This document shows positions 52,485 to 64,000 of a DNA stretch of 64,000 nt, piece by piece. The notes beneath the pieces are model-generated. The model saw only the letters and a list, made by a program, of their open reading frames with translations. It did not search any database and had not been told where the DNA came from. The DNA lies in the NCBI RefSeq assembly GCF_014490035.1, contig NZ_CP061008.1:3844001-3908000 (forward strand), read 5' to 3'. The DNA comes from Achromobacter xylosoxidans (GTDB lineage: Bacteria > Pseudomonadota > Gammaproteobacteria > Burkholderiales > Burkholderiaceae_B). Both the position numbers and the translations under genes were made by a program. Position 1 is the first letter of the stretch. Each line of letters starts with the position of its first letter.

Positions 52485-52511
52485 TAAAGTTCCCTACGGG
52501 CCTGCCGTTAT
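52485..52511 (+). promoter_or_regulatory. sigma-28 (FliA) promoter for flaG-fliD-fliS-fliT
   Basis: TAAA at 52485-52488, exactly 15 bases, then GCCGTTAT at 52504-52511. The known consensus is TAAA-N15-GCCGATAA, so it matches in ten of twelve positions with right spacing. It lies 66 bases before the flaG start. It marks the unit as late flagellar (class III). Confidence 0.85.
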
Positions 52512-52577
52512 CGTAGCTGAGAATTCCCTGAAAACAGCGCGTTCCTCCGAGACGCCCACATCGCCGTTGGAGTGATC

Positions 52578-52955
52578 ATGGCCGTAACCCCCCTAGCCCC
52601 CGCATCGTTTGCACCAGCGCCGGTCGCGACCCCGCCGGTTGCTCCAGACCCCGCCGTGAGCGTCGCGCCCGCGGCCGCCGCAACGAACAGCGGGGCTTCG
52701 GACAGCGCGACATCGGATCAATCCGATTCGCAGAAGCTCCCCCTGGACAAGGCCCTGGATGAAATCAATGATCAGATGAAGGCCTGGTCCACCCAGCTCC
52801 AGTTCGAAATCGACCCCAACGTGCACCAGGTAGTGGTTTCGGTGATCGACGCGGAATCGGGTGACGTCATACGCACGATCCCCAGCGAAACACTGCTGAA
52901 AATCGCCAAAATGATCGTGAACATGCAAGGAAATGGCATTAAAACGACGGCTTGA
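52578..52955 (+). CDS. flaG: flagellar protein FlaG
   Basis: 125 residues from ATG 52578 with GGAG five bases before it. The first 50 residues are Ala/Pro/Ser-rich and loose; the FlaG domain follows (about 55-125): LDKALDEINDQMKAWSTQLQFE, then VHQVVVSVIDAESGDVIRTIP and SETLLKIAKMI. FlaG affects filament length in other bacteria. The sigma-28 promoter is directly upstream, and fliD follows after 144 bases. Confidence 0.92.
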   Translation: MAVTPLAPASFAPAPVATPPVAPDPAVSVAPAAAATNSGASDSATSDQSDSQKLPLDKALDEINDQMKAWSTQLQFEIDPNVHQVVVSVIDAESGDVIRTIPSETLLKIAKMIVNMQGNGIKTTA

Positions 52956-53099: not shown

Positions 53100-54488
53100 A
53101 TGGCCTCTATCACCAACCTCGGCTCGGTTTCCGGCTTGCCTCTGGAAGAAACCCTGAAGAAATTGCAGGACGCCGAGGACAAAAAGCTCTCGATCTACGA
53201 CACGCGCACGGCAAGCTACAAGACCCGCATCGACGCATATTCGAAGCTGCAGAGCGCGTTGGAAGCGGTCCAGAAGGCCGCCGGGGTCCTGGGTAAGGCC
53301 GAAACCTTGGCGGCGATCAAGGGCAGCGTCACCGGCGGAACCGCGTTGACGGCCACCGTGGCCGCCGAGGGTGTCGTCGCGGGCCAGTACACCATCGCGG
53401 TCAACAAGCTGGCCAAGTCCCAGACCCTCCAATCCAGCAGCGTCAGTGACCGCACCGCCAAGAACGGCGATGCAGGTTCCTTCGAAATCGAGCTGAGCAA
53501 CGGTACCAAACAGACCATAGACCTCAAGGGCGACACCTCGCTCAACGGTATCGTCAAGGCCATCAACGCCGATGACAAGGCAGGCGTGCGCGCCACGGTC
53601 ATCAACGACGGTAACGGCAACAACTACCTGATGCTGACCGCCAAGGACACCGGCGTCCAGGCTTCCGTCAAGTCCATCACCGTCACGGGCGACCAGTCGC
53701 TCAAGGACATCCTGAGCTTCAGCACCGATGCCGGCGGCGTAACCACCGGCATGGCAAACACGAAGGCGCAGGACGCGGAGGTCGTGATCAACGGCATCAC
53801 CGTGAAGAGCGGCTCGAACAACATCGACAAGGCAATCGACGGCGTGACGCTGAACCTGTCCGAGGAAACCCCGGCGGACAAACCCATCACGCTCAAGCTG
53901 GAAGCGGACCCGACCGTGGCGACCAAGGCCGTGAAGGACTTCGTCACCGTCTACAACACGCTGCAGTCCACCATCAAGGACCTGACCGCATTCGACGCCA
54001 AGGCGGCGACCAATCAGCCCCTGACGGGCGATGGCACGACCCGCTCGATCCAATGGGCCCTGAGCAATGCACTGCAGGGCGTCCTGGGTGGAAACGTCGT
54101 GAAATCCCTGGCGGATCTGGGCATCACGACCGACCCGATGAACCGTCAGCTGAAGCTGGACCAGACCAAGCTCGACAAGGCGCTCAAGGAAAACTCTGCC
54201 GACGTCACCAAACTGTTGACGGGCGAAAACGGCCTGGCCAAGCAGATGGAAGCCGCCTTCAAGGACGTGCTCGGCGCCAATGGCTCGCTGAAAACCCGTC
54301 AAGACGGACTGACCAAGACCATCGACGACCTCGCGGCCCAGAAAGCTCGCGCCAAAGCCAGCAGCGATGCCGAAATGGACCAGCTGCGCACGCGCTTTGT
54401 TCAGCTGGATAAGTTCGTCTCGCAGCTGGGCGTCACCGGCAACTACCTGACTCAGCAATTTGCGGCGATGAACAAATCGTCCAAGTAA
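53100..54488 (+). CDS. fliD: flagellar filament cap protein FliD
   Basis: 462 residues. FliD forms the cap at the tip of the filament and helps flagellin to fold. The N-terminal part begins ITNLGSVSGLPLEETLKKLQDAEDKKLS (the FliD_N coiled coil), the middle D2/D3 domains follow, and the C-terminal coiled coil (about 380-462, QMEAAFKDVLGANG and DQLRTRFVQLDKFVSQL) ends in a family-like NYLTQQF. No signal peptide: it is exported by the flagellar type III system. fliS follows after 18 bases. Confidence 0.95.
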   Translation: MASITNLGSVSGLPLEETLKKLQDAEDKKLSIYDTRTASYKTRIDAYSKLQSALEAVQKAAGVLGKAETLAAIKGSVTGGTALTATVAAEGVVAGQYTIAVNKLAKSQTLQSSSVSDRTAKNGDAGSFEIELSNGTKQTIDLKGDTSLNGIVKAINADDKAGVRATVINDGNGNNYLMLTAKDTGVQASVKSITVTGDQSLKDILSFSTDAGGVTTGMANTKAQDAEVVINGITVKSGSNNIDKAIDGVTLNLSEETPADKPITLKLEADPTVATKAVKDFVTVYNTLQSTIKDLTAFDAKAATNQPLTGDGTTRSIQWALSNALQGVLGGNVVKSLADLGITTDPMNRQLKLDQTKLDKALKENSADVTKLLTGENGLAKQMEAAFKDVLGANGSLKTRQDGLTKTIDDLAAQKARAKASSDAEMDQLRTRFVQLDKFVSQLGVTGNYLTQQFAAMNKSSK

Positions 54489-54506: not shown

Positions 54507-54935
54507 ATGACTTATGCCGCCCGCCGCCCCCTAGGGTCCCAATCTGTCCGCTCCTACGCCGATATCGGCCTGGAAACCCAGATTCTGGGCGCAAGCCCCG
54601 AGCGGCTGATCACCCTGCTCTACATGGGCGCGCGCGCGGCCATCGGACAGGCGCGCCTACACCTGCAGGAAGGGCGGATCGCCGAACGCGGCGCGGCAAT
54701 CTCGAAAGCGATCAAGATCGTTGACGAAGGCCTGAAGATGGGCCTGAACATGGAGGCGGGCGGCGATATCGCTGCCAATCTTTCGCTGCTTTACGACTAC
54801 ATCGTCCGCACTCTTTTGATGGCCAATCTCAAGGCTGACGTCGAACAGTTGGACATAGCCGACCGTCTGCTGGCGGATCTGGCCGAAGCTTGGCAGACCT
54901 CCATAGATCGGCCTGCCGGCGGGATGCAGCCCTGA
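54507..54935 (+). CDS. fliS: flagellin chaperone FliS
   Basis: 142 residues. FliS binds the C-terminal helix of flagellin in the cytoplasm, keeps it unfolded and brings it to FlhA. Typical pieces: SYADIGLETQILGASPERLITLLYMGARAAI, ISKAIKIVDEGLKMGLNMEAGGDIAANLSLLYDYIVRTL is the helix bundle in order. Its stop TGATG overlaps a possible start of fliT. Class III transcript with flaG and fliD. Confidence 0.95.
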   Translation: MTYAARRPLGSQSVRSYADIGLETQILGASPERLITLLYMGARAAIGQARLHLQEGRIAERGAAISKAIKIVDEGLKMGLNMEAGGDIAANLSLLYDYIVRTLLMANLKADVEQLDIADRLLADLAEAWQTSIDRPAGGMQP

Positions 54936-54982
54936 TGGCCCGGAATACAAATTTAGCCAGCCATCGACCGCCCGAGATTTCC

Positions 54983-55336
54983 ATGACGTCCCTGACCCAG
55001 TACACCCACCCCATCCTGGAGCACTACCAGGAGATCGCCCATATCACGAACGACATGCTGTCAGCTGCGCAAGCGGGTGACTGGGATGCCGCGATGGTTC
55101 TTGGGCAGCAATACTGCGAACAAGTCGAGCGCCTGCGGCTGACCGACAGCAGCATGCCTCTGGACGAAGCCGGGCGCGCCATGAAGTACGACCTGCTGGT
55201 CCGGATACTGGAAAACGACGCGCTCACCCGCGACCTGGCGCTGCCGCAACTGGCCCGCCTGGGCGACCTGCTGGGACGCATGAAGCGCCAGCAAACCCTG
55301 CTGTCCGCCTACGGCTACCAGGCGCCTGAAGAATGA
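54983..55336 (+). CDS. fliT: flagellar protein FliT
   Basis: 117 residues from ATG 54983 (MTSLTQYTHPILEHYQEI); an in-frame ATG at 54935, which overlaps the fliS stop as TGATG, would add 16 residues. FliT is a helical chaperone for FliD, and in enterics also keeps the FlhDC complex in check. Helical pattern throughout: AHITNDMLSAAQAGDWDAAMVLGQQYCEQVERL and GRMKRQQTLLSAYGY. Normal length for the family with the shorter start. The next gene overlaps by 4 bases. Confidence 0.85.
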   Translation: MTSLTQYTHPILEHYQEIAHITNDMLSAAQAGDWDAAMVLGQQYCEQVERLRLTDSSMPLDEAGRAMKYDLLVRILENDALTRDLALPQLARLGDLLGRMKRQQTLLSAYGYQAPEE

Positions 55337-56694
55337 GCGTAGGTCCTGCCGCACTCGGCAACGTCCTGGTGCAGCGGCTGGACGCCGTGCTGGGCACGAC
55401 GATGTCCGCCGCCAGCGCCAACCAGGTCTCCGGCGCCCGCCCCGACGCAGTCAGCCAGCCTGGCAGCCTGGAAAAACCCGGCGCTTCGGACGGATCGACA
55501 CGCGATCCGCGGCAAGGCATACAGCCCGGCGGCGCCCGCGGCGACCGCCCCAATACTGTCGTCGACCCCAAAATCGCCGCGGCGCTGGCGCTGGCCGCGC
55601 GTGGCCTGGTCACCAGCAGCGACACCACCGCCTCGGCCCCAACCACGCTGGGCACGACGGCGCGCACGATTCTTGCCTTGCTCGCCCAATTTCCGGAGGC
55701 CGCGCCAGCGGTACAGGGCCGCGCGCCCTTGTGGACCACCGATGCGCAGCCGGGACAATCCGCCGCCAGCGCCAACCCCACGCCCGCACCGCAAGCAGGC
55801 CAACAAACAGCGCAAACCGCTACGCAAACCCTCCAGCCGATGCCTGGCCAGGCATCGGCACAGGCTCCCTCCCAGCAAGCCTCCGCGCTCGCCGCCTCAG
55901 CCGCGGCAACCCTTGACGGCGACACGCCGGCGACCGGCGCCAAACAGGATCGGCCCGCCGGACCCGGCGTAAATCCCGGCGCAGCCAAAGGACCCGACGC
56001 CGCAGCGCATGCCGCCCTGGCGGCTGGCGGACCTTCCGCGCGCGCGCTGGGACAGGCTCTGCGCCAGGCGCTGCAAGGCAGCGGCCTGTTTTACGAGTCC
56101 CATCTGACCGACATGGTCTTCGGCCGCGCCAACCCTGAGCAATTGCGCAACGAACCGCAGGCCGTGCTCGGCAAGAATCCGCCAGCGCAAGATACCGCGC
56201 CCTCGCGGCCGCGGGCGGGCAACGCCCCCAGCGGCCGCGCAGGCGCCGACCCCGCGCCGGGCGGCGCAGCCTCCTCTACCTCATCGGCCCCCGGCACGCC
56301 CATCACCGGCATACACCAGGACCTGACCGTACTCGTCCGCCAGCAACTGGACGTGCTGGCCAACCAGGCGCTGACCTGGCAAGGCGAAGCCTGGCCCGGC
56401 GCGCCCATGGAATGGGAAGTCGAGCGCGACCCCTACGGCGGCGACCCCGAGTCGGCAGTTTCCACCTGGGCCACGCGCCTGAAGCTGGACCTGCCCCGCC
56501 TGGGCCTGGTCGATGCCCGACTGAACCTGGCCGGCGATCAGATCGTCCTGCAACTCGTCGCGCCGCACAGCGCGGCCGAGATCAATGACTCCTCGGACGC
56601 GCTGCGTTCGCGCCTGCTGGCAGCCGGCCTGACCTTGAGCAATCTGTCGGTGAGCGTGGTCGAACCGCGCCTCGACATTCCCGCCGATATCTGA
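55333..56694 (+). CDS. FliK-like hook-length control protein (first copy)
   Basis: 453 residues. The first 300 or so are low complexity, rich in Ala, Pro, Gln, Thr and Gly, as in secreted ruler proteins. The last about 130 match the FliK C-terminal domain (Flg_hook): a helix-turn with LVRQQLDVLANQALTWQGEAWPG and strands with LPRLGLVDARLNLAGDQIVLQLVAPHSA, then LRSRLLAAGLTLSNLSVSV. FliK ends hook growth by telling FlhB to change export specificity. A second FliK-type gene starts at 63949 in the usual place after fliJ, so this one is extra. It overlaps fliT (ATGA) and the FlhB-tail gene (TGATG). Confidence 0.85.
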   Translation: MSVGPAALGNVLVQRLDAVLGTTMSAASANQVSGARPDAVSQPGSLEKPGASDGSTRDPRQGIQPGGARGDRPNTVVDPKIAAALALAARGLVTSSDTTASAPTTLGTTARTILALLAQFPEAAPAVQGRAPLWTTDAQPGQSAASANPTPAPQAGQQTAQTATQTLQPMPGQASAQAPSQQASALAASAAATLDGDTPATGAKQDRPAGPGVNPGAAKGPDAAAHAALAAGGPSARALGQALRQALQGSGLFYESHLTDMVFGRANPEQLRNEPQAVLGKNPPAQDTAPSRPRAGNAPSGRAGADPAPGGAASSTSSAPGTPITGIHQDLTVLVRQQLDVLANQALTWQGEAWPGAPMEWEVERDPYGGDPESAVSTWATRLKLDLPRLGLVDARLNLAGDQIVLQLVAPHSAAEINDSSDALRSRLLAAGLTLSNLSVSVVEPRLDIPADI

Positions 56695-57011
56695 TGAGCC
56701 GCCTCACCCCCCATCCGGAATCGGACCCGAACGCCGGCCGCAACGCGGCGGTCGCCATTTCCTACGAAGAAAAGGACGGCGCTCCGCGCGTCGTCGCCAA
56801 GGGCTACGGCCAGCTCGCGGACACCATCGTCCGCGCCGCGCAGGAAAACGGCCTCTACGTCCACGAGTCGCGCGAACTGGTCGGCCTGCTGATGCAGGTG
56901 GACCTGGACGCACATATTCCTCCCCAACTCTATGTAGCGGTGGCAGAATTGCTGGCCTGGCTCTACCGCCTGGAATCGCGCGAGTTCCCCGAACCCGCCC
57001 CACCCGCCTGA
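56694..57011 (+). CDS. stand-alone FlhB C-terminal domain (FhlB/FlhX-like)
   Basis: 105 residues, no membrane helices. It matches the cytoplasmic domain of FlhB/YscU from just after the autocleavage site: AVAISYEEKDGAPRVVAKGYGQLADTIVRAAQENGLYVHE, and then VDLDAHIPPQLYVAVAELLAWLYRLE. The NPTH cleavage motif itself is not there; in its place is GRNAAVA. So it is like the cleaved C-terminal part of the export switch, made as its own protein. Such proteins can replace FlhB's tail in some bacteria. It is coupled to the FliK-like gene by TGATG. Confidence 0.85.
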   Translation: MSRLTPHPESDPNAGRNAAVAISYEEKDGAPRVVAKGYGQLADTIVRAAQENGLYVHESRELVGLLMQVDLDAHIPPQLYVAVAELLAWLYRLESREFPEPAPPA

Positions 57012-57035: not shown

Positions 57036-57839
57036 GTGTTGGATGCCAGCGACCCGGAGTTCCTGCTGACCCGGCCTGACGAGATGCGTTCGGCCCTGTT
57101 CGAACTCACCCACCCCGACAGCCACATCCTGGTACGCGACGCCGCGGACCGGGAGATGGCCGTGCTGATCCTCGGCGTGGACAAGCAGGCCGGCGAATTC
57201 TTCTGGAGGCCGCGCGATTACGCCGGCGCGGACTTCGAGCAGTCCGACTCCATGGGCTTGCTGAGCGGCACCACCTTCCACTTCCATGCCACCGCCTATG
57301 GCGGCGTGCAGATCCGCTTTCGCGTGCAGCGGCCCCAGATCATTCATTTCGACGACGGCAGCGCCGCGCTGGTATCGCCGTTCCCGGAACGCCTGGCCCG
57401 CATCCAGCGCCGCAAGATGTTCCGCGCGTCCCTGATCGCGGCCGCCAACGTATGCCGCGCCAGTTGGCAAGCCACGCCCAACGACAAGCCCTACGCGTTC
57501 ACGATACGCGACATCTCGGTCGACGGCGTAGGCCTGCGCGCAGGACTCGCGGTCTCCGCCCTGCCGGAACGCGGCACCGTGCTGGAAAATGTGCAACTGG
57601 ATTTTGGCGACCAGGGCAAGCTCAACGCCAGCCTGGAAGTGCGCAATGTATACCCGGTTTCCGGCCAGCCCATGGTCTCATCCGCCGATCCGGACGAACC
57701 GGCGGCAAGGCATGTTTCGCTGACTGGCGAACCGCCCGTCAGCCACCTGGGAGCCGTCTTCCTGAATCTGGATGCGCGCCAGGAAAACTGGCTGCAGCAG
57801 GTAGTCTGGCGCCTGGAAAGAGGCGCCCAGCGCAATTGA
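57036..57839 (+). CDS. ycgR: flagellar brake protein YcgR (c-di-GMP-binding PilZ)
   Basis: 267 residues, start GTG 57036 (or TTG 57039), with GAGG upstream. An N-terminal YcgR_N domain (to about 115) precedes a PilZ domain with both c-di-GMP motifs: RxxxR as RKMFR (126-130 region) and DxSxxG as DISVDG (159-164). When it holds c-di-GMP, YcgR slows the motor at the switch complex. The diguanylate cyclase at 12232 is one possible source of signal. 24 bases after the FlhB-tail gene, in the same transcript. Confidence 0.93.
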   Translation: MLDASDPEFLLTRPDEMRSALFELTHPDSHILVRDAADREMAVLILGVDKQAGEFFWRPRDYAGADFEQSDSMGLLSGTTFHFHATAYGGVQIRFRVQRPQIIHFDDGSAALVSPFPERLARIQRRKMFRASLIAAANVCRASWQATPNDKPYAFTIRDISVDGVGLRAGLAVSALPERGTVLENVQLDFGDQGKLNASLEVRNVYPVSGQPMVSSADPDEPAARHVSLTGEPPVSHLGAVFLNLDARQENWLQQVVWRLERGAQRN

Positions 57840-63948: not shown

Positions 63949-64000
63949 ATGAACGCTCCCCTGCCCCTGCCCTCCATCGCGCCCGCCGCGCCCTCGTCGA
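63949..64000 (+). CDS. fliK: start of the canonical fliK (partial)
   Basis: ATG 63949 has AGGAAG 10 bases upstream. Only 17 codons are inside the window (MNAPLPLPSIAP, then Ala/Ser-rich), consistent with the low-complexity N-terminus of a FliK protein. The place after fliJ is the standard place of fliK. No domain can be seen, so the name rests on position alone. Confidence 0.6.
   Translation, partial: MNAPLPLPSIAPAAPSS

Follow-up and report, generated by a model that had tools for sequence, protein, structure and literature searches.

The model of the flagellar export switch comes from Salmonella, which has a single FliK, the exported hook ruler that triggers the FlhB switch, and a single FlhB. 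According to PMC10965912, binding of FliKC to FlhBC shifts FlhA to the filament state, and the last five residues of Salmonella FliK matter for switching. A detached FlhB tail, named FlhX, FhlB or FlhB2, has been described in Campylobacterota and Actinobacteria (PMC9321776, PMC10746217, PMC4894983 and PMC2864241). For H. pylori, the title of Wand 2006 presents HP1575, a protein of this kind, as a 'spare part' standing in for the FlhB tail and says that it allows export after deletion of FlhBCC. The designation 'flhX-fliK' has been used for Nitratiruptor (PMC9321776), where the passage leaves unstated whether that fliK is an extra or the sole copy. In P. putida, the pp4328-4329 operon encodes a FliK homolog and a FlhB domain protein and is regulated by FleQ, which raises the promoter of the pair only 1.8-fold (PMC5026340). 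Detached FlhB tails and pairs of a FliK homolog with a FlhB domain protein are therefore already in print, and the impression in the earlier note that no function is assigned is not right: FlhX/FhlB/FlhB2 has been described and, in the title of the H. pylori paper, given a 'spare part' role.

We analyzed a 64-kb stretch of DNA (hereafter the window) from a 6.76-Mb genome assembled as a single contig, for which the best matches with a name are Achromobacter. Pfam matches and open reading frames gave the plus-strand order flaG, fliD, fliS, fliT, followed by a second fliK-like gene, a gene for a detached FlhB C-terminal domain and a YcgR-like PilZ gene (Table 1). We assigned the names fliK2 and fhlB to 55333-56694 and 56694-57011, respectively. 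The earlier note had placed such a pair after fliT, coupled by TGATG, with a standard fliK that seemed to start at 63949, and each of these points was recovered: the four upstream genes were identified by Pfam, the stop/start overlap is present in the sequence, and the canonical fliK ORF, whose ATG we place at 63949, continues past the end of the window. The fliT stop also overlaps the fliK2 start (ATGA, 55333-55336). Like FlhX/FhlB/FlhB2 (HP1575; C. jejuni Cj0848c), fhlB encodes a free-standing FlhB C-terminal domain besides a full FlhB, HP1575 and Cj0848c being counted as this kind on the strength of published papers; unlike them, fhlB here adjoins a fliK-like gene in a fliD unit. The same kinds of genes are adjacent in P. 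putida pp4328-4329, but that pair has its own FleQ-regulated promoter, whereas here the pair lies 3′ of flaG-fliD-fliS-fliT.

Table 1. Features of the fliK2-fhlB locus; positions are those of the window.
Feature	Position	Strand	Evidence
Sigma-28-like promoter site TAAAG-N14-GCCGTTAT, 5′ of flaG	52485..52511	+	2 mismatches to FliA consensus
flaG	52572..52955	+	PF03646 E 2.9e-20
fliD (filament cap)	53100..54488	+	PF07195 E 2.8e-52; PF02465 E 9.6e-16
fliS (flagellin chaperone)	54507..54935	+	PF02561 E 1.3e-32
fliT (FliD chaperone)	54983..55336	+	PF05400 E 1.4e-20 on ORF 54890-55336; ATG at 54983 picked from sequence
fliK2, second FliK-like protein, 453 aa	55333..56694	+	PF02120 E 9.7e-13
SGLFYESHL, FliK2 hallmark (pattern SGxFxExxL), residues 250-258	56080..56106	+	
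Flg_hook (switch, T3S4-type) domain of FliK2	56461..56661	+	Pfam, residues 377-443
TGATG stop/start overlap, fliK2/fhlB	56692..56696	+	Sequence
fhlB (flhX), FlhB C-terminal domain on its own, 105 aa	56694..57011	+	PF01312 E 3e-17
YcgR-like PilZ protein gene	57036..57839	+	PF07238 E 9.5e-5; PF07317 E 1.6e-4 (latter below cut-off)
Canonical fliK start, runs past window end	63949..64000	+	ORF; PF02120 E 7.3e-23 in genome

FliK2 was expected to contain a Flg_hook domain, the absence of which had been named beforehand as grounds for rejecting the FliK-like assignment. The domain scored 48.2 bits, above the cut-off of 29.8 (PF02120, E 9.7e-13), placing the protein in the FliK family. A profile built from the FliK2 C-terminus matched FliK (2RRL) and PscP (5CUK) in the PDB. 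In the predicted model of FliK2, ten-residue pLDDT means were 83-94 across the Flg_hook domain and 50-74 in the region of the SGLFYESHL motif, too low for a statement about its fold. Foldseek with this model returned the PscP switch domain as its top row (E 5.9e-3) and no PDB match at E <0.001. Two features set FliK2 apart from canonical FliK 2RRL and PscP 5CUK: SGxFxExxL, and a conserved WQGEAWPG stretch that precedes the core. SGxFxExxL was present in 70 of the 75 FliK2 proteins from Betaproteobacteria, in 12 of 18 from Gammaproteobacteria and in only 1 of 19 from other classes, indicating that the FliK2 family is not uniform; none of 31 canonical FliK proteins has it. At 55333-56694 both marks of the FliK2 subfamily, the SGxFxExxL motif and an adjoining FhlB gene, are present. 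A canonical FliK profile matched an ORF at E ≤0.01 in just 7 of 110 FhlB loci, and in the genome studied here canonical fliK is a gene separate from fliK2. A candidate third FliK at C1:5870826-5871035 was rejected: its Flg_hook match is weak, the frame fits DciA better (E 1.1e-6 versus 1.8e-4), and we attribute the match to chance. By eye, the last residues of FliK2 at loci L066-L094 and in Gammaproteobacteria recur by lineage, examples being FSxEA and, in some Gammaproteobacteria, LVDxRA.

FhlB matched profile positions 261-335 of the 335 in PF01312 with residues 18-90 (63.3 bits, cut-off 24.4). It thus consists of the cytoplasmic C-terminal domain of FlhB alone, the domain make-up of FlhX/FhlB, and carries GRNAAVA in place of NPTH. 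Having neither an N-terminal transmembrane part nor an NPTH self-cleavage site, as the earlier note had read from the sequence, FhlB falls outside the FlhB/SctU export switches. The one full-length FlhB of the same genome (C1:3939943-3940962, E 9e-133), the canonical one, has NPTH. None of 129 FhlB ORFs contained NPTH, and an NPTH-bearing ORF was present at 49 of 50 FlhB loci, the ORF with NPTH being preferred where a choice existed. The solved chains closest to FhlB were FlhB cytoplasmic domains, with FlhBCC (3B0Z) alike at E 1.7e-9, the best value; aligned with a full-length FlhB chain from the PDB, FhlB sets in immediately behind the cleavage-site PTH and spans the remaining core. We take A286, P287, A341 and L344 (Salmonella FlhB numbering) to be the substrate docking patch. 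When these positions were mapped through the alignment of FhlB to the FlhB PDB chain, the first was Ala in 125 and Ser in 4 of 129 FhlB proteins, the second Pro in all 129, the third Ala in all 129, and the fourth Leu in 118 and Ile in 11, so that the docking residues are kept. A term search of PMC8983047 found none of these four labels.

Since fliK2 and fhlB each have a standard flagellar paralogue in this genome, they could be duplicated pieces of fliK and flhB that arose recently within the lineage and have no special role. The tree argues otherwise. It was built from 70 FhlB and 35 FlhB domains, the latter comprising 15 from this order and 20 from the rest of the phylum, and one branch separated FhlB from FlhB (99/91; 200 of 200 bootstrap trees), with inner forks poorly resolved on its 93 columns and with HP1575 and Cj0848c outside the sample. 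Betaproteobacterial FhlB clustered with its counterparts from other classes rather than with FlhB, and the pair is spread across classes, making recent duplication very improbable. FhlB instead appears to be a distinct protein of old origin. Its best NCBIfam match was TIGR00789 flhB_rel (E 3.8e-23), and its 81.5 bits do not reach the cut-off of 117.35; we therefore place it in the broader FhlB kind rather than in that model, whose cut-off was reached, among the matches listed, by none of the 249 genomes surveyed across the phylum.

To the earlier suggestion that the gene order would be common to related genera, the genome survey gave a clear positive answer. FhlB was present in at least 98 of 150 genomes sampled over the order, 110 of which had any FlhB-family match; these counts took FhlB rows down to 71 bits (FlhB rows began at 70.6) and used 98 FhlB and 97 FliK2 rows entered by hand. 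FliK2 rows whose match began no earlier than model position 49 were excluded as canonical FliK, apart from G113, where the row lies beside its FhlB, and G138, where it is probably a canonical FliK. In at least 94 of the 98 FhlB genomes, a FliK2 match shared the strand of FhlB, the gap between the two profile matches ranging from −20 to 143 nt. The exceptions were G093, with both genes at contig ends, G057, where 4.1 kb separate the two, G138, with weak matches far apart, and G105, with FhlB and no FliK2 among the matches listed. Eight genomes (G008, G034, G048, G068, G089, G090, G127 and G133) had neither FhlB nor FliK2 among the matches listed, and all eight have a full-length FlhB plus one or more Flg_hook matches. 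Three of them share one family and two another, implying fewer than eight independent losses. Congeners of G034 and G089 (G078 and G047, respectively) carry the pair, so that assembly gaps are possible in those two genomes; G089, which lacks both profile matches, nevertheless has a second Flg_hook match.

This pattern bears on whether FhlB is a passive spare part that replaces FlhBCC lost after cleavage, with FliK2 as a minor second ruler-like FliK. The start of the FhlB alignment directly after the FlhB PTH fits such a replacement, as does the title of Wand 2006 on HP1575. However, FliK2 and FhlB are mostly retained or lost jointly, which asks for a shared role, and we consider the passive account rather unlikely.

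A separate assembly of the same order, G082, has adjacent FhlB and FliK2 on contig C6; its sole FlhB-family match is only as strong as expected for FhlB (E 9.5e-18), and Flg_hook was matched once in an assembly 97% complete. Either the assembly has a gap or the pair is left over from a flagellum that was lost.

In named Betaproteobacterial loci, FliK2 adjoined FhlB in 75 of 80. At the other five, FliK2 lay 525 nt off (L170) or was absent (L147, L148 and L159), or the locus is cut by the contig end (L156). Upstream fliD and fliS were found in 61 of the 80 loci, and 14 of the remainder have less than 1.2 kb of upstream sequence. An in-frame ATG overlapped the FliK2 stop in 54 of the 75 adjoining loci. 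An apparent FliK2-FhlB fusion in the 544-aa frame of G055 was rejected, as the two profile matches are 77 nt apart in frames of different length (403 and 544 aa); the 120 homologues listed of 854 likewise had PF02120 alone. The three loci with FhlB and no adjoining FliK2 also have no fliD upstream; two of these records are named Accumulibacter and one Pseudomonadota bacterium.

The stop/start overlap, together with the small size of FhlB, its position directly 3′ of fliK2 and its lack of a membrane part, would also suit a chaperone or decoy that masks the switch domain of FliK2 and so keeps it from tripping FlhB early, or that titrates canonical FliK; the retained docking residues fit this as well. 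Gene neighbourhood by itself is nevertheless no proof of a chaperone, and the ability of HP1575 to replace FlhBCC in export, as given in the title of Wand 2006, counts against a mere decoy. A chaperone or decoy role thus seems to us a fairly improbable explanation.

Outside the Betaproteobacteria, the pair was found in other surroundings. We hand-picked 19 Gammaproteobacterial FhlB loci, as same-class rows among the matches listed with frames under 250 aa, and in 18 of them a FliK-like ORF ended within −59 to +10 nt of FhlB. Only 3 of the 19 had fliS upstream. At the other loci inspected, the longest flanking ORFs, which are not always the immediate neighbour genes, encoded an ABC-transporter subunit, CcmB, CheB, CheW, MotB, FlgA or non-flagellar proteins. 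These differing neighbourhoods indicate that the pair is not merely a by-product of the fliD operon. In other classes, 19 of 30 FhlB loci had an adjoining FliK2, one of them at just E 0.01. The remaining 11 had none by profile; three that were scanned adjoin CorA and three, by eye, appear to adjoin rod genes. The pair thus moves together through varied gene neighbourhoods, and FhlB occurs alone too. Among the titles and abstract openings of the open-access papers searched, none brought together the near-universal pairing in the order, the joint absences and the FliK2 motif, and none told of a knock-out of a FliK2/FhlB-type pair.

We propose that fliK2 and fhlB form one functional unit. FhlB would be a soluble stand-in for the cleaved C-terminal fragment of FlhB (FlhBCC), having the same domain and docking residues and neither anchor nor self-cleavage, and FliK2 would be the dedicated FliK of FhlB, its C-terminal switch domain binding FhlB as FliK binds FlhB. 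Produced along with the filament cap and its chaperones, the pair would act at the export gate while export turns to filament proteins or once it has done so. Most probably it would take up the FlhBCC site and thereby hold the late export mode in place or bring it back. The best reading of a soluble FlhBCC that comes with its own FliK, among the genes of the filament cap and its chaperones, is a filament-phase unit of the export gate. As a whole, this reading, in which one unit with FliK2 bound to FhlB works at the gate in filament assembly, has in our judgement an even chance of being right, binding, place and timing all being inferred. Its parts differ in strength: physical binding between FliK2 and FhlB is probable, action at the export gate could equally hold or fail, and action specifically in the late phase is a tentative suggestion. 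The earlier proposals of a second export switch, or of a tuning of FliD and flagellin export, are possible. In a more far-reaching form, FliK2-FhlB would be a second, soluble specificity switch across the Beta- and Gammaproteobacteria, with FliK-loaded FhlB swapping for the FlhB tail after hook completion and creating a filament-phase state absent from the Salmonella switch; this we think unlikely.

Two computational approaches bear on the interaction. In a mirror-tree comparison of 51 loci, FhlB and FliK2 distances were correlated (Spearman 0.49), but the partial correlation given FliS, FliG and FliD was 0.01, leaving specific coevolution unsupported in a test made weak by the shortness of FhlB. 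When FliK2 and FhlB were modelled as one read-through chain, 7 of the last 10 ten-residue blocks, and with them most of FhlB, had pLDDT <50, the fold being too poor to show an interface.

Scored against a FliA consensus, the sigma-28-like site was the sole match with 2 mismatches in the window, which holds 9 matches at ≤3 mismatches; shuffled sequences gave a mean of 5.06 such matches, and 10 of 100 shuffles gave 9 or more. The unit had been described as a late, sigma-28-type unit. It does look late, whereas the sigma-28 half of that description comes down to one site with weak statistics and is plausible, not proven. Combined with the modest effect of FleQ in P. putida, the weak site suggests that late timing may not be general.

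With an extra FlhB tail in at least 98 of the 150 genomes of the order, nearly always beside a second FliK, the textbook switch scheme would be incomplete for these bacteria if the pair acts at the export gate. The question of the role of FlhX would also gain a defined partner and become testable.

The YcgR-like PilZ gene, which begins 24 nt 3′ of fhlB, is possibly the last gene of the unit, and a c-di-GMP brake may belong to fliK2-fhlB. Of the 80 named Betaproteobacterial loci, 38 contained a similar gene. It also occurs at loci with no fliD found upstream, namely L147, L148, L159 and L156, the last of which lies at a contig end.
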